Virus record (IMG/VR): IMGVR_UViG_3300042476_000355
Span: 1 to 27,665 of that record
Direction: 5' to 3' (one strand)
Source of the DNA: a virus
Length of the DNA stretch: 27,665 nucleotides
Shown: one piece after another, positions 5,484 to 27,665 of the stretch
Layout of the letters: each line of letters starts with the position of its first letter
Position numbering within the stretch: the first letter of the stretch is position 1
Position numbers and translations under genes: made by a program
Notes under the pieces: model-generated
What the model was told of the DNA's origin: nothing
Database searches by the model: none
The model's input: only the letters and a program-made list of their open reading frames with translations

Positions 5484-5930
5484 GACCTGTGGTCAGGCAA
5501 ATCCAAAATACTTGGCTGGTAGTGCTGGTGATCTTGACCACCTTGGCAACCTTGAAAGGTATCTTACACCTGTCAGACGCTCTAAAACGCTCTAGGAAGC
5601 CTCCAAATTGAGCGGGACGTGTCTAACCATTACCCGACCCTCCCAATGGCTTCCTGAGCGATCCTGTGCGATTTGGTGGGGTTTTGGAAGGTGGGCTTAG
5701 GTACAATTTCTGACCAGTCCGGCAGGAAGGTCGCTTTCCAGTACCCTGGTAGACCACAGTGGGTTACCCCTCCAAGAATTTCTGAAAGATTTTATCCTCA
5801 TGTGGTCTATAGGGTTATGTCAATCCTGACCACATCTTGGTGAGATTTCCTCGAACACCGGTTCTTGACTTCCCGCGAAAGCATGTCATCTTGCGTGTAC
5901 ACTCGATTCTTAGATAGATAGATATACTTA
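5484..5930. other. Non-coding control region, left part
   Basis: No convincing gene is seen. It contains the diverged repeat at 5586-5695 and heptamers at 5752, 5801 and 5828. The last two form an inverted pair, ATGTGGTC then GACCACAT, with 20 bases between. GC content is near that of the genes, unlike the AT-rich block that follows. It separates the leftward operon from the rightward virion genes. Confidence 0.6.
5586..5695 (+). repeat. Diverged non-coding repeat, copy A
   Basis: It shares with 24915-25031 the start AACGCTCTAGGA and, about 62 bases later, GGCTTCCT followed by a GAT-CTGTGCG-TTTGG series and GAGG/GAAGGTG. In copy B the two blocks are 71 bases apart. Both copies lie in non-coding DNA next to regulatory elements. 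The middle of the element is not conserved. Role unknown. Confidence 0.55.
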
Positions 5931-6281
5931 GTACAAGTATTACTATGTAATACTTGTACAATACAAACTTACAAGGACAATATCTAACATTACGAAGTAA
6001 TGTTAGATATTGGACGAGTAAGTTTGACAGGGAGAATTCTTTTTTGTTGTTACTGTAGACCAGTAACCAATTACTCACTTCGTTCGTAATTGGTTACGAT
6101 ATCTATCATTGTATGTAATACAATAGATAGATAAGATAAGTAATGTAGAATCATTTATGTAAGGTAGTACTGTAAAATGGGTATGTATATTACATACATA
6201 CAATACATGATTACATAACTGAAGTACATAGATAAGTAATACAAAGTAGATGTCAATACTCTTTTATGTAGATAGAGTATT
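5931..6281. repeat. Cluster of six AT-rich inverted repeats (candidate origin or switch)
   Basis: Perfect or near-perfect palindromes follow each other: 5931-5959 (13-base arms, TAT loop), 5978-6012 (16-base arms, GAA loop), 6063-6097 (12-base arms, 11-base loop), 6101-6132 (14 pairs with one bulged A), 6181-6197 (7-base arms, TAT loop) and 6255-6281 (7-base arms). The right arm of the first three begins GTAAT. The block is strongly AT-rich and includes (GATA)3 near 5911. It lies between divergent operons. Known roles of such blocks include replication origins and repressor binding; neither is shown here. Confidence 0.75.
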
Positions 6282-14892: not shown

Positions 14893-17361
14893 ATGAGTAA
14901 GAAGTTTGAGTATGAACTGACTCTACGGCTGGAGAAGGCCGAGAAGGCGATTGCCTCCCTTGCTTCAAAGATTGAGAAGGACTTAGGGGGAGCGGCAAAT
15001 AAGGGGTTGAAAGACCTCACCGATGCTGATAACAAGTATACCAAAGAACGCATTGACAATATCCGGAGACGTTCGCAAGAAGATTCTGAGGCAAGGAAGA
15101 TTCGATTTGATGACCACAAGGGTGTGCTGTCACGGATCGAGCAGGCTGAGATTATCAATGCTCAGAAGTTAGCTGAGATCGAAGCAAGAGTGACTACGCT
15201 AACTAAGAAAGAACTTGAGGATCAACTTAGAGAGTACCAGAAACTCGCAAGGGCACGCATTCAGTATGCAACTGAGGCTGGGTATAAAGCGGAAGCAATA
15301 ACTAGCCAATCAATGGCTAACGGTGCCAGAGGTGTTTCTGCAATCTTCCAGGTTCAGCAGGGTATCGAAGATGCCATGTACGCTGGTCTGCGTGGTGCTG
15401 GTAACAACATCGCCTTCTTGCTGACCAAGGTAACCAGTAGTTGGGTTGCTATCGGTGGTCTGATTGGTGTGGCTACTCTGCAACTTGCTGACCACCTTGG
15501 TGTGTTTGAGAAACTCAACGAAGCCTACGATGGTGCTTTGTGGAAGACTAAAGAACAGGTCAGGTATGAAGAACATCTGCTTCGGTTGAAGAAAGAGCAA
15601 CTGGACAGAGAAGACCAGAAAAAAGAGGATGAGGCTAAGTTTTCTCCAGCAAGTAAGACACTAGCCGGGCTGCAAGATGAGATCAAGGAAAAGAAAGAGA
15701 TACTTACTGGTCAAAGAGAGCGACAGTTCGCCTATGAGCGTACTATCGAACTTGTAACTGAGTTGAAAAATAGGCAGAAAGAGTTACGCGGTGTCGAGAA
15801 GGCGATGGAAGAAGACCTTCTGCCAATCACCGTGAACGAGAAGAAGGAACTTGAGCGAAGGAAAGCCGAGCTTGAGAATCAGATCAGTAAGTTGAAGGGT
15901 CGCATTGAAGATCAGAAGCCCGGCTTTACTGCCGACGAGCTGGTTAAGAACGCTAAAGCGTTTGAGGTTGTTCAAGAAAAGGCAGAGAACTTCGGCAGTG
16001 CTGTCGCAAAGACCACAGACGAAGTGAAGAACTTGTTAGAGCAACTCAAACCTGTTGAGGAGGCCAGTTTCCGCAAGGAAGCAATGGAATGGGTTAAGCA
16101 AGAAACCCTTGCCATGCTCGACCGAGAAATCGAACAGTCCAAGGATGTGGTCAAGGCTCGTGAAGAAGAACTTAGGACAGTCCAGCAGACTCTTGCTACT
16201 GCTGAGCAACTACTGAAGACTGAGCAGAATCGTGAAGATGCTATCCGTAAGGCAGCATCGGCACGGGAAGATGAGTTCGCTAAGCAGAAACTGGGTCTCC
16301 AGAATACCATTCTGGATATGGAGGCTTCTGAGACTGCTAAGGCTGAAAAGGCCAAAGCAGACTCTGCAAAAGAGGCTGTTGCTAGTCAGATGGATAGCCA
16401 TCGTAAGTGGGCAGAGAAGCAGGCACAGATTGACAAGTTCAACAATAAGGGCAACTCAGCCAATATCGATGCTGCTAAGCAGAACTGGCTTAGTAACATG
16501 CAGGCACAAGCCGATGCTGAGATTGCTCGCATTGAAGCGAATGAAAAGCGTGCCATTGAATCTGCCAAGAAGATTGCTGAAGAGGCCAAGAAGGCCAACC
16601 TCGATGCTATGGAAGTTGTGCAGAAGAAGAAGGTCGAAGACCTGCTTGAAGAAGCGGAAGGTATCCAGTTCGGCGGTGGTGATTGGGGTGATCCTGAAAA
16701 AGCAAAAGAGATGTACGACGACGCACAAGAGGCGTTAGATAAGGCCCTGAAGACTTTGAAAGAAATGGCTGACGCCAAGGTTGGTAATCTCAATCAGAAG
16801 GATTCTGTGCAGCAAGGTAAGCAAGCTCTACGCGAGTGGGAAGAACTTACCGAGAGGATCAAAGAAGTCAATGACCTTAAATTGGAATATAACAAACAGG
16901 CTCAGGAAGAGTCCCATGATCGTGTTCAGGATATAGCTGCTGATATGGTTCAAGAGATGAATCGTCTGGATGATGTTAAAGAGAAACACGACGAACTTCT
17001 CAAAAAGAAGGAACTCATCAGCAAGACTCCAATGACAAGTGCTGATGATCTTCAGGCTATTGAAAAGTATCGTGCTGCTTTGCAGGCGATTCTTGATATG
17101 CGAATCCAGATTGCGAATCAGCCGTTGCAGGCTCCAATGCAGGTTCCTGGTTTGGGTGCTCCGGGTGCTCCACAACCTCCTGCTGGTGCTGGCGGTCAAG
17201 GTGCTCCAGGTGCTCCTTCCAACCCAGCACCTACCCCACCACCGAATTCAGGCATGTCGTTGACATTCAACATGAACAACACGACACCGAATGCTGTGAT
17301 GGCGGCTGCTGCTGCCTACCAGCAGAATCAGCGGGCAGTGGCAATGCTCAGCGGTAATTGA
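14893..17361 (+). CDS. Tape measure protein
   Basis: An 822-residue protein, the longest in the window, in the usual place after the major tail protein and before distal-tail and hub genes. It is mainly coiled coil: heptads run from residue 1 to about 130 and again from 235 to 740, rich in Glu, Lys and Ala. A hydrophobic segment at about 175-205 (VAIGGLIGVATLQLADHLG) is the membrane-active part often found in tape measures. The C-terminus has a collagen-like GAPGAP stretch and ends in a short beta region (MSLTFNMNN). In siphoviruses length sets tail length; at about 0.15 nm per residue this would be near 120 nm. GGAGAGG precedes the ATG. Confidence 0.85.
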   Translation: MSKKFEYELTLRLEKAEKAIASLASKIEKDLGGAANKGLKDLTDADNKYTKERIDNIRRRSQEDSEARKIRFDDHKGVLSRIEQAEIINAQKLAEIEARVTTLTKKELEDQLREYQKLARARIQYATEAGYKAEAITSQSMANGARGVSAIFQVQQGIEDAMYAGLRGAGNNIAFLLTKVTSSWVAIGGLIGVATLQLADHLGVFEKLNEAYDGALWKTKEQVRYEEHLLRLKKEQLDREDQKKEDEAKFSPASKTLAGLQDEIKEKKEILTGQRERQFAYERTIELVTELKNRQKELRGVEKAMEEDLLPITVNEKKELERRKAELENQISKLKGRIEDQKPGFTADELVKNAKAFEVVQEKAENFGSAVAKTTDEVKNLLEQLKPVEEASFRKEAMEWVKQETLAMLDREIEQSKDVVKAREEELRTVQQTLATAEQLLKTEQNREDAIRKAASAREDEFAKQKLGLQNTILDMEASETAKAEKAKADSAKEAVASQMDSHRKWAEKQAQIDKFNNKGNSANIDAAKQNWLSNMQAQADAEIARIEANEKRAIESAKKIAEEAKKANLDAMEVVQKKKVEDLLEEAEGIQFGGGDWGDPEKAKEMYDDAQEALDKALKTLKEMADAKVGNLNQKDSVQQGKQALREWEELTERIKEVNDLKLEYNKQAQEESHDRVQDIAADMVQEMNRLDDVKEKHDELLKKKELISKTPMTSADDLQAIEKYRAALQAILDMRIQIANQPLQAPMQVPGLGAPGAPQPPAGAGGQGAPGAPSNPAPTPPPNSGMSLTFNMNNTTPNAVMAAAAAYQQNQRAVAMLSGN

Positions 17362-17386
17362 CAGCTACCCTGTGGTCCAGTATCAT
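17358..17386 (+). promoter_or_regulatory. Rightward sigma70-like promoter before the distal tail genes
   Basis: TTGACA (17358-17363), a 17-base spacer, TATCAT (17381-17386), then TCGT. The spacer contains a complete TGTGGTC heptamer (17371-17377). The -35 box overlaps the stop region of the tape measure gene. Start point is near 17393, directly at the first base pairs of the following terminator-like hairpin. Confidence 0.85.
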
Positions 17387-17390
17387 TCGT

Positions 17391-17426
17391 GCCAGAGTAG
17401 GCTTCGGCTTACTCTGGCCTTTTTCT
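17391..17426 (+). terminator. Intrinsic terminator directly at the promoter start point
   Basis: GCCAGAGTAGGC and its complement at 17407-17418 form 12 pairs (one G-U) around a TTCG tetraloop, followed by CTTTTTCTT. It would end transcripts from the tape measure gene. RNA started at the adjacent promoter would begin with this hairpin, giving either a tiny RNA or a 5' stabilising cap. Confidence 0.85.
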
Positions 17427-17436
17427 TGGAGTTGAG

Positions 17437-17967
17437 ATGGCTTTTTCATTCGCACCTGCTCTCTGGCGTTCTGGTACGTCGTATACGCCTCCCAGTGGCA
17501 CCACACGGACCACAACCGTCAACAGTGGTCAATTGTTCTTCCTGCCCCAGCCGATCACAGCATTCCCTCTCCTAGACGATTTCAGGGGTAGGGTTGAGGA
17601 GATGCCAGCCAAGGTTGGTGGTAATGCTGTCAGAGGCAACAGACATGCTCATAAGCAGATCAGTATCACCGGCTTGTATGGTAAGCATTTGGTGTCAACT
17701 GAGACTACTCTGATTACTGAACTTCAGATGCTCGACTTGCATCGAGACCTGCTTGAGTTTCTCAATCCAACTGAGCCTACACAAGAGCATGAACTATTCA
17801 TGTACTACGATTCAGGTACAAATACCTATCGCAAGTACAAGCAATGCTTCAAGGCAAGTTTGCAGACTGACATTGGTGACTCTGCCTATGCAAACAAAAT
17901 CTTCACCATGAGCCTGCAAATGATTATCCTTGATCCAGTCATCTACACTACAGGACCGGGGGCTTAA
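17437..17967 (+). CDS. Distal tail protein-like
   Basis: A 176-residue protein following the tape measure. MAFSFAPALWRSG, a central QISITGLYG strand, LLEFLNPTEPTQEHELFMYY and a C-terminal LQMIILDPVIY fit the pattern of Dit-like proteins (about 100-residue core, ending in strands that contact the tube). These form the hub platform at the tail tip. TTGGAG lies 6 bases upstream. Position is the main evidence. Confidence 0.55.
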   Translation: MAFSFAPALWRSGTSYTPPSGTTRTTTVNSGQLFFLPQPITAFPLLDDFRGRVEEMPAKVGGNAVRGNRHAHKQISITGLYGKHLVSTETTLITELQMLDLHRDLLEFLNPTEPTQEHELFMYYDSGTNTYRKYKQCFKASLQTDIGDSAYANKIFTMSLQMIILDPVIYTTGPGA

Positions 17968-19541: not shown

Positions 19542-20696
19542 ATGGCTGGCTGGAACAATAAGAACTGCTGCTGTGAAGCCAAAGCATACACGTGTGCTGA
19601 CGGTACAGTCGACATCTGCTGCGTTACACTAGAAGTCAGCACGTGGGTGAGAAAGCTGCCTGCATATGCTAGAAACACAGACCCCGATGACATCTGCGGT
19701 TATGTTTCCTCGCCATATCCGCACAACAACGTCTGCGGTTATGCAAGTAACGGTAGTCCCTGTGGTCTACCATCATTCAGTATCTTTTGGGGGATTCAGT
19801 CAGACGGAACAATAGCTCTTAACTTGGAACTCTATTCTACCGTAGACGGCAGCGGTAACTATGTTCCACCAGTGTTTCATCGTGTTACAGGACTAGACCC
19901 GAACACATGGTATCTGTCGCCTGTTACGTTCACTCTTTCTGGTGTAACCTACACTATTGAGGTTTGTCCTGATCCGCACACACCGTTCCCTGAGTGGCCT
20001 CTTACAGATGTGTTCTATGAGCTTAGGGATTCAACAGGTGCATTGATGCGGGCAGCAGGGGGCCTACTGTGTGGGGAAGAGTGTGACCCTTCACGGTTCC
20101 TCTGGAGACTGCGGTGGAAGTACAGCATTTACACGGACGAGATCACCATCTCGCCCTTTGTGCAGGCTCGCACAGGTCCTCTCTCCGTTTCGAATTACAG
20201 TGGAACGATTGTTGTTCCGTACGACGATGGTAACTGGGCAGACGACGATTACACAACGACACTGACAGCACCCGGAGTTGCTGACCTGCCTGTTTCTGTA
20301 CTCCGAGTGGATTCCTGTACTATACCTCCCCCACCTGAACCTTGTGAAGTAGAGAACGCCTGTTTCCCTGATGGCTGTCCTTGCATTATCGACGGTTCAG
20401 ATGGTAGTCTGTATCGTACACTCACTGCTGACATCTCTGGCCCAGTCACTGCAACAGGGCTTACACTGATTCCATACTTAGCTGAGGGATGGGACTATAG
20501 TTCTGGCGGCGATTCCATTGCCATTAGGTGTACTAATGGGGGGGTCGATCCGTACTATGTGTATGTCAGTGTCGGTGGTACAATCATGTTCGGTTCTATC
20601 CCTGCTGGCGGTTTTGACTGCACTCCAGATGGTCTGGATATCGTTGATATCACAGTGACAGATGGAATAACAACAATGGTGCTCTACACACTATGA
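19542..20696 (+). CDS. Cysteine-rich tail-tip protein
   Basis: A 384-residue protein with 19 cysteines, including NCCCEAK, DICCVT and CPCIID. Many sit in loops of a beta-rich sequence (LYSTVDGSGNYVPPVFHRVT). No signal peptide is seen. It lies directly after the hub gene and would be a tip or fibre protein; the Cys residues may bind metal or form disulphides after release. Its end overlaps the next gene start (ATGA). AAAGGTGC precedes the ATG. Confidence 0.6.
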   Translation: MAGWNNKNCCCEAKAYTCADGTVDICCVTLEVSTWVRKLPAYARNTDPDDICGYVSSPYPHNNVCGYASNGSPCGLPSFSIFWGIQSDGTIALNLELYSTVDGSGNYVPPVFHRVTGLDPNTWYLSPVTFTLSGVTYTIEVCPDPHTPFPEWPLTDVFYELRDSTGALMRAAGGLLCGEECDPSRFLWRLRWKYSIYTDEITISPFVQARTGPLSVSNYSGTIVVPYDDGNWADDDYTTTLTAPGVADLPVSVLRVDSCTIPPPPEPCEVENACFPDGCPCIIDGSDGSLYRTLTADISGPVTATGLTLIPYLAEGWDYSSGGDSIAIRCTNGGVDPYYVYVSVGGTIMFGSIPAGGFDCTPDGLDIVDITVTDGITTMVLYTL

Positions 20697-21991
20697 AACA
20701 CGCCTGTGGTTGGGATAAGTGGCTTGCACCCGGACAGCCAGACGGTACGCCCGGGTTTTGTAATGCCTGTGGTCTGAATATGACCTACGGTGGTGTGAAG
20801 CGTTGCCTGCTCAAGCGAGGCGGTGCGGTGGTGGATCAGGAAAAGCCTGCGGCTCAGCGGTGGGTGTCCCTGACTGATCTGAGTCGGGATTCTGCACAAC
20901 TTGCTTCTATGCTTTCCGGGAAGGCAGATTGCATCATCGGTGTAGCCCGTTCGGGACTAACCCCTGCAACAATTGTAGCTACACTACTTCACCTGCCTCT
21001 CTTTGTTCTCCGAGAGTCTGAGGGGGACATTGTTGATGCAGGGCACGGTTGGAGATTGAAGACAGACCAGTTCCAAACCCCTGTGGTCATCGATGACACA
21101 TCGTGCTCGGGCCAGAGCCTAGCAAGAATAAAGAAGGTGGTTGAAAGCAGTCACCTGACTCCTAAGTACGCCGTGGTATACTATGACACTAAGTCAAAAG
21201 AGTCTGTGGACTACTTTGTCAGGGAACTGCCCAGACCACACGTACTGGAATGGAACATTGCTAACAGTGTCTACTCCAGTCAGATGCTGTGGGATATGGA
21301 CGGGGTGATCTGTGAGGACTGCCCTAATTACACCGCTGATGACGAGTACTACGCAAAGTGGTTGGATACCGCTAAGCCCAAATGCCTGCCTTTGAGAAGC
21401 AAGATCAGGATCGTCACCGGTCGCAGAGAGATGTGGAGACCACAGACTGAAGCATGGCTGGCTAGGCATGGTGTGCAGGCAGAACTGATAATGCACCCAG
21501 ATGGGGAGCGTACAGGCGAGTCTGTCATTGAGCACAAAGCCAATGCAGTGCTGAAGTATGCGACCGGACCTGTTGCAATGCTGGAGAGCGATAAGCAGCA
21601 GGCTCTGCGGATACAGGAGATCACCGGCAAGGCAGTCTGGTATGTGGGTGATGGTCCTGAAGTAGCAAAACAAAAACCGCAGAAGACAGTAACAACTGTC
21701 CCTGCGGTTCAGGAAGTTCGGGTTGATTGGTTTGAGGACTATCCTTGCACTTACCGTGCAGGAGAGCCTCAGAAGAAGACGTGCGGATGCGGTGGCACAG
21801 GTGTGGTCTACACGATGGATTGCACAGAAACCACAGGTAAGTCCTGTGTTGCAACAGAACTACAGCGTAAGGGGCTTCTCAAGAAGCATCCGGACCTGTA
21901 TCATTCTGTGAGGGTCTGTGAAGACTGTCCGCTGGCTAAGGCAGTGTCCGTGGCTCCCGGCCTTCCTGCTGGGCAATCGCCTTCTCATTAG
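20693..21991 (+). CDS. Phosphoribosyltransferase-HAD fusion with zinc motifs
   Basis: A 432-residue protein with four parts. Residues 5-38 have a Cys set (C5, C23, C26, C38), likely zinc-binding. Residues 60-190 form a type I phosphoribosyltransferase with the PRPP loop VVIDDTSCSGQS at 131-142. Residues 198-320 are a HAD phosphatase core: D201-M-D203-G, TGRR at 242-245, Lys282, and ESD at 298-300. The C-terminus has CGCGG and CEDC. The pair of activities suggests processing of a nucleotide or sugar-phosphate. The substrate is unknown. It starts within the stop of the tail-tip gene (ATGA). Confidence 0.75.
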   Translation: MKHACGWDKWLAPGQPDGTPGFCNACGLNMTYGGVKRCLLKRGGAVVDQEKPAAQRWVSLTDLSRDSAQLASMLSGKADCIIGVARSGLTPATIVATLLHLPLFVLRESEGDIVDAGHGWRLKTDQFQTPVVIDDTSCSGQSLARIKKVVESSHLTPKYAVVYYDTKSKESVDYFVRELPRPHVLEWNIANSVYSSQMLWDMDGVICEDCPNYTADDEYYAKWLDTAKPKCLPLRSKIRIVTGRREMWRPQTEAWLARHGVQAELIMHPDGERTGESVIEHKANAVLKYATGPVAMLESDKQQALRIQEITGKAVWYVGDGPEVAKQKPQKTVTTVPAVQEVRVDWFEDYPCTYRAGEPQKKTCGCGGTGVVYTMDCTETTGKSCVATELQRKGLLKKHPDLYHSVRVCEDCPLAKAVSVAPGLPAGQSPSH

Positions 21992-24275: not shown

Positions 24276-24505
24276 TGGATAACACAACACCGCAGGTTGG
24301 TCAGCACTGGCGACTGAGACGCAAGGACTCACACGGATTTGTCACTTATGATGATGTTGTGGTCGCGGCTGTCTCTGAAGATGGTCAATATGTCCGGACA
24401 AGACTGGGCGGGTTTCCTTGGTTGGATTTTCCGATCAGTGACTTCCAGCGTGCTGGGCAGTACATCAGTCCGAACTGGTTCTGGCGTCTCTTCGGCTTCA
24501 CTTGA
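24275..24505 (+). CDS. Small hypothetical protein
   Basis: A 76-residue protein starting MDNTTPQVGQHWRLRRKDSH, with a beta-rich body (GFVTYDDVVVAAVSEDGQYV) and an aromatic C-terminus (NWFWRLFGFT). It may be an SH3-like small barrel. The ATG overlaps the previous stop (TGATG). Its stop codon overlaps the -35 box of the following promoter. Confidence 0.6.
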   Translation: MDNTTPQVGQHWRLRRKDSHGFVTYDDVVVAAVSEDGQYVRTRLGGFPWLDFPISDFQRAGQYISPNWFWRLFGFT

Positions 24506-24531
24506 CAACCACCAGCCAGTCTTTGTATCAT
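24502..24531 (+). promoter_or_regulatory. Rightward promoter for the tRNA region
   Basis: TTGACA (24502-24507), 18-base spacer, TATCAT (24526-24531), then TCGC. Start point near 24538. It drives a structured leader, a tRNA-like element and tRNA-Arg, and perhaps the small genes from 25036. Confidence 0.85.
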
Positions 24532-24541
24532 TCGCAAACGC

Positions 24542-24675
24542 ACTCCCCACACGACCGGTAACGAGCAGTAACATGCTTAGGACCGAGTGCATCTTTGGGG
24601 AGTCAAATCCAGCAGTTGGGAAGCCTACCTATTCTGACGAGAATAGGTAATCGCGATAGGCGGAAATCTGCTGGG
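24542..24675 (+). ncRNA. Structured RNA of unknown class
   Basis: Two folding units follow the promoter. The first is closed by ACTCCCCA (24542-24549) and TGGGGAGT (24596-24603). The second is a three-tier stem: CCAGCAG/CTGCTGG (24609-24615 with 24668-24674), GCCTA/TAGGC (24623-24627 with 24657-24661), and CCTATTCT/AGAATAGG (24628-24635 with 24640-24647) around a GACG loop, with internal loops TTGGGAA, GGAAAT and TAATCGCGA. The nesting is too regular for chance. No ribosomal site or long frame lies here. I do not recognise the class. Confidence 0.5.
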
Positions 24676-24746
24676 TGTTCTCTAGCCGGATACTGCGAGG
24701 GTGGACTAATCATCTTCGTGGTGGGTTCGACTCCCGCCAGAGAACA
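24676..24746 (+). tRNA. tRNA-like element, degenerate or without D stem
   Basis: TGTTCTCT at the start pairs with AGAGAACA at the end (8 pairs), and the T arm is canonical (GTGGG-TTCGACT-CCCGC at 24721-24737). Only about 44 bases precede the T arm, against 48 in ordinary tRNAs. The D stem cannot be formed beyond two pairs. Bases 24695-24717 make a 9-pair hairpin (three G-U) with an ACTAA loop. I cannot assign an anticodon. It is either a decayed tRNA or a tRNA mimic. Confidence 0.45.
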
Positions 24747-24835
24747 TGCGTATCTACCACGTGTAGATGTCGTAACGAATGCGTCAGTAATGGCGTGTTC
24801 AGCACGGATGTGTCAGGGATGACATATCCGTTCAC
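24747..24835 (+). other. Spacer between tRNA-like element and tRNA-Arg
   Basis: About 90 bases with no gene. A hairpin TCTACCACGTGTAGA (24752-24766) with a 6-base arm is seen. It may be a processing site between the two RNAs. Confidence 0.35.
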
Positions 24836-24909
24836 ATCCTTGTAGCTCATCTGGACAGAGCAACGACCTTCTAAGTCGTTGGCAGTAGGTTCGACTCCTA
24901 CCAAGGATG
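24836..24909 (+). tRNA. tRNA-Arg (anticodon TCT)
   Basis: A full cloverleaf: acceptor ATCCTTG with CAAGGAT, D arm GCTC/GAGC, anticodon arm ACGAC-CTTCTAA-GTCGT with anticodon TCT at 24870-24872, variable loop TGGCA, T arm GTAGG-TTCGACT-CCTAC, discriminator G at 24909. No CCA is encoded. It reads AGA codons, which are used in the phage genes. Confidence 0.95.
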
Positions 24910-24914
24910 CTCAC

Positions 24915-25031
24915 AACGCTCTAGGATGCCCTATACGGGCTTCAGATTCTCAGGATGACTCAAAGTACGTCCTGACCCATTTGGCGGCTTCCTACGTGAT
25001 TCTGTGCGGTTTGGGAGCATTTTGAGAGGTG
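24915..25031 (+). repeat. Diverged non-coding repeat, copy B
   Basis: It shares with 5586-5695 the start AACGCTCTAGGA and the end block GGCTTCCT, GAT-CTGTGCG-TTTGG, ending in GAGGTG near 25030. The ribosome site of the next gene is at its right end. The middle differs. It lies between tRNA-Arg and the membrane protein gene. Confidence 0.55.
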
Positions 25032-25035
25032 TTCT

Positions 25036-25374
25036 GTGGACAGATTCTACGACTTTTTTCTCTCGCTTGGTCCAGAAGGTCAGTTCGGCATCTTTATGGT
25101 GTCTATCTGTACAGTATACATGGCCCTGGGGCTGTTGTCTGGTCTGTTAGACTGGCTGTTCCGCAAGCCTGTCGTTCAGGAGAAACAGGTAGTCCTAGCT
25201 TGGAACATTGTTGTTATCGATCCAGGGCGAACCTACCAGCAGATTCTTGTTGTGCCTACCTCGATAAGTGCGGAATCACTAAGTTGTGTGGTCAATGGGC
25301 ATGTCATTGAAGGTCCATTCAACGATCTGGACAAGGCGATTGCCCGCAAGGACGAACTCAAGAAGAAACTCTGA
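25036..25374 (+). CDS. Single-pass membrane protein
   Basis: A 112-residue protein from a GTG, with GAGAGG 6 bases upstream. Residues 17-42 are hydrophobic (FGIFMVSICTVYMALGLLSG); the rest is soluble beta-rich (NIVVIDPGRTYQQILVVPTS) ending in a basic helix (KAIARKDELKKKL). It begins a new group after the tRNA region. No family is recognised. Confidence 0.65.
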   Translation: MDRFYDFFLSLGPEGQFGIFMVSICTVYMALGLLSGLLDWLFRKPVVQEKQVVLAWNIVVIDPGRTYQQILVVPTSISAESLSCVVNGHVIEGPFNDLDKAIARKDELKKKL

Positions 25375-26251: not shown

Positions 26252-27275
26252 CTTCTACGACAAGCAGGCAGACGAAGGAGCCGATCATTGGGACGTAGAG
26301 ACTGCCCGTGCTATCATGTACGGCTACTGGATGAAGTATGAGCGTGAGGATGCAGACATAAAGGTTCGAGGGATCGAAGTACCGTTCTGCATTGAACTGC
26401 CTGTGCCTGACGATCTACCAGAAGACCTGCGACCACAGCAGCCGAGATACATTGGTGGAATCATCGACTCCATTATTGAGCGTAATGGAGAGATTCATGC
26501 AACAGACATGAAGACTGCCGGGTATGTCAGTAATGACTACTGGACAGAACTGCTGACCAATCCACAACTCACACAGTACCAGTTCGTGCTATATGCTGCT
26601 GGATTCAGTGATGCGGGACTGGAATGGGATGTGGTCCAGAAGCCCGGAATTGAGCCAAAGAAACTGACTAAGGCTGCTGTGGCTGAGATTAACGACCTCG
26701 GCACATACGCAGGCTGGCCGGTTTCTAGGGAAGTGCCTAGTGATGAAAAAGAGTCGCCAGTACTGTACGGGCGGCGATTGATGTCGTGGTACGAACAGTA
26801 CCCAGATCGCTTTCAGAGGAGGTTTTTCCGTCGAAATGAGAAGCAACTTTTGGAGTTCATCTACAATGAACACTGGATGCAGTCGCAGATGGAACAAACT
26901 CGTTTGAGAGGAGGTGGTCAATCTTGCTCACAAAGAAACTTCAGAGCCTGCTTAAACTACGGATCACTTTGTGAGTATCATCCGCTGTGCAGCGATCAGT
27001 GCAATGCTGCGACATTGTACAAACCGCGACAGTTAGTGGCTGATGGTAAGCCTGAACTCGGGGTAACACCCAGCCAAGAGGCTATATTCTCAGCCTGCCG
27101 GGCGAAGTGGTTGTATCGCTACGGCGACCAACCGATTGAACCTGTGGTCAAGGTTAAGACGAAGGCGCAGAACCTTGGCACACTGTGTCACGCCGGTCGT
27201 GAAGTTCTCCTAGCAGACAGATTGGAAAATCCAATTGTCCTGCCCTTGGAAAAGCCTCAAAAGACCGGTGCTTGA
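26226..27275 (+). CDS. PD-(D/E)XK nuclease, RecB/Cas4-like, with permuted motif order
   Basis: A 349-residue protein. Residues 20-260 contain the phage PD-(D/E)XK core: GGIID at 77-81, DMK at 94-96, the QLTQY motif at 114-118, WDVVQKPG, and a Cys cluster (C234, C242, C249, C255, C259) that may hold an Fe-S cluster. The elements normally at the N-terminus, S-x-x-x-x-x-x-x-C-R-x-K-W-x-Y-R-Y and GT-x-x-H, are found instead at 281-300 and 318-322, after the Cys cluster. The order is thus circularly permuted, or the gene is a fusion of two fragments. Its partner is likely the P-loop protein downstream, for recombination. Confidence 0.7.
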   Translation: MTPLAKLNDFYDKQADEGADHWDVETARAIMYGYWMKYEREDADIKVRGIEVPFCIELPVPDDLPEDLRPQQPRYIGGIIDSIIERNGEIHATDMKTAGYVSNDYWTELLTNPQLTQYQFVLYAAGFSDAGLEWDVVQKPGIEPKKLTKAAVAEINDLGTYAGWPVSREVPSDEKESPVLYGRRLMSWYEQYPDRFQRRFFRRNEKQLLEFIYNEHWMQSQMEQTRLRGGGQSCSQRNFRACLNYGSLCEYHPLCSDQCNAATLYKPRQLVADGKPELGVTPSQEAIFSACRAKWLYRYGDQPIEPVVKVKTKAQNLGTLCHAGREVLLADRLENPIVLPLEKPQKTGA

Positions 27276-27301
27276 CAAACAGCGAATGGTTTTGGTATCA
27301 T
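27272..27301 (+). promoter_or_regulatory. Rightward promoter before the P-loop ATPase gene
   Basis: TTGACA (27272-27277) overlaps the nuclease stop codon, then an 18-base spacer and TATCAT (27296-27301), then TCGC. Start point near 27308. The RNA begins with a small hairpin (ACAGTT/AACTGT) and runs into the terminator at 27325. Confidence 0.85.
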
Positions 27302-27324
27302 TCGCTCCACAGTTGCAGAACTGT

Positions 27325-27364
27325 CCGGGATGTCCAGAGTGGTGACTGGCATCCCGGTTTTTCC
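27325..27364 (+). terminator. Intrinsic terminator or attenuator
   Basis: CCGGGATG (27325-27332) pairs with CATCCCGG (27350-27357), followed by TTTTTCCTT. It lies about 17 bases after the start point of the adjacent promoter and 20 bases before the ATPase gene, so it could attenuate that gene or release a short RNA. The loop begins TCCAG, like the terminator at 14839. Confidence 0.85.
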
Positions 27365-27385
27365 TTAACCCCATCAGGAGCATCA

Positions 27386-27665
27386 ATGGCACAGAATGTA
27401 TTGGATAGGCTGCGAAAAGCAGTCAACACGGATCAGAAGGAATTGCTCGTCATCTACGGTGCCCCAGGCACAGGCAAGTCATCCTTCGCTGCTCAGTTCC
27501 CCAAGCCGTTGTTCGTGACTGATGGTCGTGACGGTGGTTATGCTGACCTTGTTCGATCTGGTCAGGTAGTGAATGGGGTAGCCCCAATTGAGACCACAAG
27601 TTGGTCTGAACTGCGTGAAGTGACTAAGGCACTCGCTGATCCATCGACCACACTTGATTGTCAGA
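27386..27665 (+). CDS. P-loop ATPase, Sak4-like recombinase (partial)
   Basis: The start is an ATG with AGGAG 7 bases upstream; the frame is open to the window edge, so about 93 residues are seen. LLVIYGAPGTGKSSFAAQFP carries the Walker A motif early in the protein, followed by PLFVTDGRDGGYADL and a SWSELREVTKAL segment. This is the order in phage AAA_24/Sak4-type RecA-like ATPases, single-strand annealing or recombination proteins. The RecB-like nuclease next to it supports a recombination module. The Walker B motif lies beyond the window. Confidence 0.75.
   Translation, partial: MAQNVLDRLRKAVNTDQKELLVIYGAPGTGKSSFAAQFPKPLFVTDGRDGGYADLVRSGQVVNGVAPIETTSWSELREVTKALADPSTTLDCQ

Follow-up and report, generated by a model that had tools for sequence, protein, structure and literature searches.

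Organization and conservation of the locus

The window, by which we mean the entire stretch of DNA analyzed here, comes from a public metagenome collection, as a virus record of 27,665 bases with a match to a phage capsid and, close to the RNA described below, Sak4-like and exonuclease genes, the Sak4 match being that of its relative L002. Upstream of the tRNA region, 20693-21991 encodes 432 aa that match polynucleotide kinase and, weakly, phosphoribosyltransferase (PHROG 415 and 8995), possibly with a role in RNA repair. Further along, between a promoter at 24502-24531 and a genuine, canonical tRNA-Arg(TCT) at 24836-24910 (called by ARAGORN; 64.1 bits against Rfam RF00005), both on the plus strand, we found a conserved block at 24542-24803. 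On the same strand this comprises, in order, the structured domains P1 and P2, a tRNA-like element (TLS1) and the hairpins P4 and P5. The initial annotation had placed a structured RNA candidate at 24542-24675, ahead of tRNA genes. This stretch is indeed structured, but the conserved element continues to 24803; one downstream tRNA gene is canonical, whereas the other is the tRNA-like TLS1. TLS1, the P4-P5 pair and the T4 precedent considered below go beyond that annotation.

Scans of viral contigs and a genome scan recovered the block from two other phage contigs only, L002 (IMGVR_UViG_3300010354_000110) and L008 (IMGVR_UViG_3300032092_000144), and all comparisons are between these three sequences. 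Positions 24542-24804 of the window align with 3871-4127 of L002 at 92% identity; the three contigs are mosaic, so that such local identity and conservation may partly reflect recombination. The true stretches among those returned by the pattern scans of viral contigs were 1 of 3, 2 of 4, 2 of 2 and 2 of 4, the others (L003, L004, L006, L007, L017 and L018) being chance pattern matches in unrelated sequence, as were both stretches from the genome scan (L019 and L020). Protein-guided scans brought no carriers beyond L002 and L008; they also returned L015, a further related fragment that shares a gene with the left part of the window and whose record is devoid of the element. P1-P2 occurs as one copy in each of three of the four records and is absent from that of L015, the records being possibly incomplete. 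Among annotated phages, P1-P2 drew four matches and P4-P5 one, all at E about 5, and the best 20 of the 864 records matching the wider region align at the tRNA-Arg. Protein searches for related cultured phages gave remote matches only for the helicase and none for the capsid protein.

At fourfold-degenerate sites, the window and L008 share an identity of 0.53-0.81 in four genes and of 0.42 in gene 26226; the corresponding values are 0.45 and 0.80 for the window and L002 (two genes) and 0.415 for L002 and L008 (one gene). Judged from these alignments, P2, with 69-70 of its 73 positions identical among the three sequences, and P4-P5, with 55-56 of 58, are conserved above the level of fourfold-degenerate sites.

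Pairing and folding of the conserved block

The structure amounts to 72 pairs, namely 15 in P1, 24 in P2, 12 in TLS1 and 21 in P4-P5, and standard pairs occupy all 216 cells (three sequences by 72 pairs) of this structure, which was proposed after the sequences had been seen and leaves the variable bodies of TLS1 and the P1 loop outside the count. Changes that break the stems without compensation, which the initial annotation had named as evidence against the candidate if seen in relatives, did not surface in L002 and L008: none of the 216 cells is broken, and five pairs are changed on both sides, four in P1 and one in the T-stem of TLS1. Column shuffles with RNAalifold returned z-scores of -6.5 for P1, -5.0 for P2, -6.9 for P1 and P2 together, -5.5 for TLS1 and -4.7 for P4-P5, with 0 of 500 shuffles as low for each element (1 of 200 in a repeat for TLS1); those for P1 and TLS1 are biased in their favor by a structure-guided alignment made by hand, and those for P2 and P4-P5, which vary one-sidedly, reflect stability more than covariation (shuffled SCI 0.94).

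P1 (24542-24603) is closed by an 8-bp clamp, ACTCCCCA/TGGGGAGT, followed by 3 bp, a GAC/A internal loop, 4 bp and a variable loop, with 45 of 45 cells paired. Its interior in L008 resembles that of the window at the level of shuffles (432 of 2000 as high), yet the succession of 3 bp, GAC/A loop and 4 bp is retained there, a layout reached by 171 of 200,000 shuffles.

P2 (24604-24676) combines a 9-bp closing stem, a purine-rich junction, a 10-bp apical helix and a CGC/GCG arm. Two stem systems had been noticed behind the promoter, the second with three tiers of 7, 5 and 8 pairs; both systems are present as P1 and P2, and so are the tiers of the latter. The outer 7 and apical 8 pairs hold up, with probabilities of 0.98-1.0 in the three sequences, whereas the middle 5-pair tier is disfavored (0.02-0.25). 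In the fold of lowest energy, 2.3-2.8 kcal/mol below the three-tier fold, the 9-bp stem meets arms of 2, 10 and 3 bp at a four-way junction, and the substitutions are compatible with either arrangement. Since all changes in P2 are one-sided, covariation furnishes no proof of its fold, the support for which is stability and conservation. Two features of the P2 loop CUGACGAG were considered and set aside. Together with the downstream GGAAAU it resembles a hammerhead core, a reading rejected by eye, as the ends of the loop fall within the conserved apical helix and no stem II is visible; and its possible pairing with CGUCAG in P5 spans six bases, a length expected by chance.

Folded by itself, 24538-24680 reaches -57.7 kcal/mol, an energy (z -4.73) that none of 200 shuffles attained. 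When ranked with GC correction against 2754 segments of 140 nt on both strands, the segment at 24541 comes 15th (z -2.78), those above it including an AT-rich hairpin cluster at about 5.9 kb, a stretch at 22.7 kb and the RNA's own downstream part. The most extreme fold of the whole window is at 5914-6250, an AT-rich (about 30% GC) intergenic region with several near-perfect hairpins (13 bp, 30-nt arms and 12 bp).

P1-P2 falls into no family of Rfam 15, either at the gathering cut-off or at E<=10, in line with the initial annotation, which had recognized no known class; matches to tRNA-Sec, YrlA and RsmW near P1-P2 lie far below the cut-off. In searches of open-access papers, the titles and abstract openings listed mention neither the element nor phage tRNA-like elements with replaced bodies, a scope that does not establish their absence from the literature. 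These observations support a structured RNA outside the known Rfam classes, situated between a phage promoter and a tRNA.

The promoter family and the tRNA-like elements

The strong promoter initially reported at 24502-24531 stands: it consists of TTGACA, an 18-nt spacer and TATCAT, and the same signal recurs in the window, L008 and L015. TTGACA-N17/18-TATCATTCGC occurs four times in the window as against none in 100 shuffles. With the spacer widened, TTGACA-N16-19-TATCATTC occurs five times in the window, five times in the L008 record, twice in that of L015 and not at all in that of L002, where the -10 at the matching place reads TATCCT; the reversed control has no occurrence in any of the four records. 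Thus, the promoter belongs to a real family, with five copies in the window and seven in two of the three related records. Members of this family at 17358-17437 and 27272-27386 are directly followed by a hairpin with a T-run that precedes the next gene, an arrangement suggestive of attenuation or antitermination.

The distance from the -10 to the start of P1 is 10 nt in the window and 8 nt in L008. The corresponding place in L002, 10 nt past the -10, is taken by the start of a tRNA-Met, whose end lies three bases ahead of P1. In each case, then, P1 starts where either a predicted transcription start or the 3' end of a tRNA would free it. Given the tRNA-Arg 3' of the element in the window and L008, and the tRNA-Met 5' of it in L002, the gene order indicates that the element lies within a phage tRNA transcription unit, presumably read as a single transcript.

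TLS1 (24677-24745) couples a tRNA acceptor stem and T-arm to a body that is not that of a tRNA, with a predicted RNase P site at 24677/24678. In the window, it reaches 20.5 bits against tRNA-Sec (cut-off 47) and has neither an ARAGORN call nor an RF00005 match above the cut-off; its counterpart in L008 scores 42.4 bits against RF00005 (cut-off 29), yet it too is passed over by ARAGORN. The stack of acceptor and T-stem has 12 of 12 pairs in L008 and 11 of 12 in the window and L002, where the junction of the two helices is an A.C mismatch; neither of these two encodes the CCA. The bodies of TLS1 in the window and L008 are unrelated (1694 of 2000 shuffles as high). A second such element, TLS2, is present in L002 (4150-4267) and on the minus strand of L008 (4733-4639) and absent from the window, where 24804-24831 forms a 12-bp hairpin in its place. 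Between these two contigs the acceptor stem of TLS2 is unchanged and its T-arm nearly so, around bodies of 86 nt in L002 and 63 nt in L008 that are again unrelated (820 of 2000 shuffles as high); its 24 cells in these two contigs are all paired and are additional to the 216. Within each of TLS1 and TLS2, the T-arms are identical at 15 of 17 positions and the acceptor stems are unchanged. The retention of these parts at the 3' side of P1-P2 fits the early guess that tRNA processing might be involved. Behind TLS1, P4 and P5 (24746-24803), the latter with a GUAA loop, are paired in all 63 of their cells.

Precedents and competing interpretations

Taken together, the block is apparently an undescribed conserved structured phage RNA, and probably a released small RNA with tRNA-like processing marks. 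Specifically, we consider it moderately probable that P1-P2 is a small phage RNA forming the 5' part of the tRNA-operon transcript and set free by a cut that TLS1 directs. The RNA would span about 24538-24677, roughly 139 nt. The promoter would put its 5' end a few bases ahead of P1, whose stem might shield that end and so leave a product that is presumably stable. All that TLS1 retains of a tRNA is the acceptor stem and T-arm; since this is the part that RNase P is reported to need, cleavage at 24677/24678 is predicted to set the 3' end. A passage of PMC11143913 describes RNase P as cleaving hairpins made of an acceptor, T-stem and T-loop and as measuring 12 bp, and it includes the C4 and M3 RNAs among phage RNAs matured by this enzyme. 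P2, in which loops and stems alike are conserved, is the probable working part, and would probably be bound by a protein or RNA of the phage or of its host. P4-P5 could constitute a second small RNA behind TLS1.

The RNAC and RNAD of phage T4 are the closest precedent. In T4 (NC_000866), rnaC and rnaD, of 139 and 119 nt (T4s001 and T4s002; species 1 and 2 RNAs), lie beside a tRNA-Arg, and rnaC has matches in 718 annotated phage records, 698 of which cover at least 80% of it. Passages of PMC9697503 report validation of both by Northern blot and class them as late RNAs, and those of PMC3014915 and PMC9697503 give their roles as unknown. Small and structured like the present RNA, they too belong to a phage tRNA cluster and adjoin tRNA-Arg, although they stand at the 3' end of the cluster and the present RNA at its 5' end behind the promoter. 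RNAC further resembles TLS1 and TLS2 in that a perfect T-arm lies close to its 3' end while its long body is not that of a tRNA (five of its seven acceptor positions are paired), and it differs from P1-P2, which itself has no T-arm. A blastn comparison of 24496-25050 with the T4 region gave short matches only (best E 0.077), and a search of the T4 locus (L021) with model R1 gave no match. The present element has no Rfam match to the C4 antisense RNA. GOLLD and ROOL are ornate structured RNAs, often phage-borne and near tRNAs; they are much larger than the present RNA, which has no Rfam match to them at E<=10. They form RNA-only complexes, according to a passage of PMC12286853.

The placement of P1-P2 also permits an unlikely alternative, namely that it is never released and acts in cis as an operon leader, either as an antitermination RNA comparable to HK022 put, its two stem-loops acting on RNA polymerase, for which put uses the enzyme's zinc-binding domain, or as a 5' stabilizer protecting the long transcript that carries the tRNA and the genes beyond it. 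In the window and L008, the two stem-loop domains lie directly 3' of the promoter, much as a passage of PMC9378689 describes two stem-loops just past the promoter for HK022 putL, and the hairpins with T-runs behind the promoters at 17358 and 27272 would make antitermination useful. In L002, however, the tRNA-Met intervenes between promoter and P1, a point softened by HK022 putR, which the same source places about 270 nt past the start. Further, put RNAs are about 70 nt long and occur as two copies per genome, as against about 135 nt and one copy per record here, where the records are fragments. Finally, the present RNA is followed by a tRNA-like element, unlike put RNA, and a cis-acting leader would leave this element unexplained.

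It is less likely still that P1-P2 and the tRNA-like elements are decoys, mimicking parts of tRNAs and thereby engaging nucleases of the host, or other proteins that bind tRNA, which are directed against the phage. The tRNA-like size and predicted four-way junction of P2, the replaced bodies beneath the tRNA-like tops and the polynucleotide kinase-like gene upstream would all accord with such a role; on the other hand, P2 lacks a T-loop and is not matched by the tRNA models of Rfam, and there is no known defense target. Phages commonly gain and lose tRNAs, and the L008 counterpart of TLS1 scores as a tRNA, though its anticodon stem is unpaired by eye. Yet we regard it as very improbable that P1, TLS1 and TLS2 are merely tRNA genes in functionless decay: closing stems and T-arms have been retained with compensation despite the replacement of the bodies, and decay would not spare P2 and P4-P5, with their conservation beyond fourfold sites. 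That 24573-24650 encodes a 25-aa leader peptide with incidental stems is hardly credible: the frame, complete from ATG to stop in the window (contrary to the initial view of a region with no protein frame) and in L002, lacks a start codon in L008 (by reading frames) and differs at 4 of 25 residues between the window and L002, and the structure explains the changes better.

Returning to the released small RNA, we tentatively entertain a broader and doubtful extension of this reading, in which the locus is an RNA array whose constant closing elements hold exchangeable bodies between conserved functional RNAs, with T4 RNAC following the same design. The closing elements would be the 8-bp clamp of P1 and the acceptor stem with T-arm of TLS1 and TLS2, the tRNA tops serving as pure punctuation for the tRNA-processing enzymes of the host. 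If so, several small RNAs would issue from one promoter, bodies could be swapped with no loss of processing, and RNAC would be another example of such a design. An RNA with no homology to RNAC and RNAD in the same kind of place shows the parts that are under selection, and the replaceable bodies of the tRNA-like elements suggest the purpose of their tRNA-like ends. A testable rule follows: an acceptor stem with T-arm would mark a site of processing, and whatever is conserved between two such marks would be the product.

Beyond the tRNA-Arg, the leader of the next gene (24909-25048) is 89-92% identical in both relatives; over 24905-25060 it is conserved, with weak support for structure (z -2.4; 9 of 500 shuffles as low).
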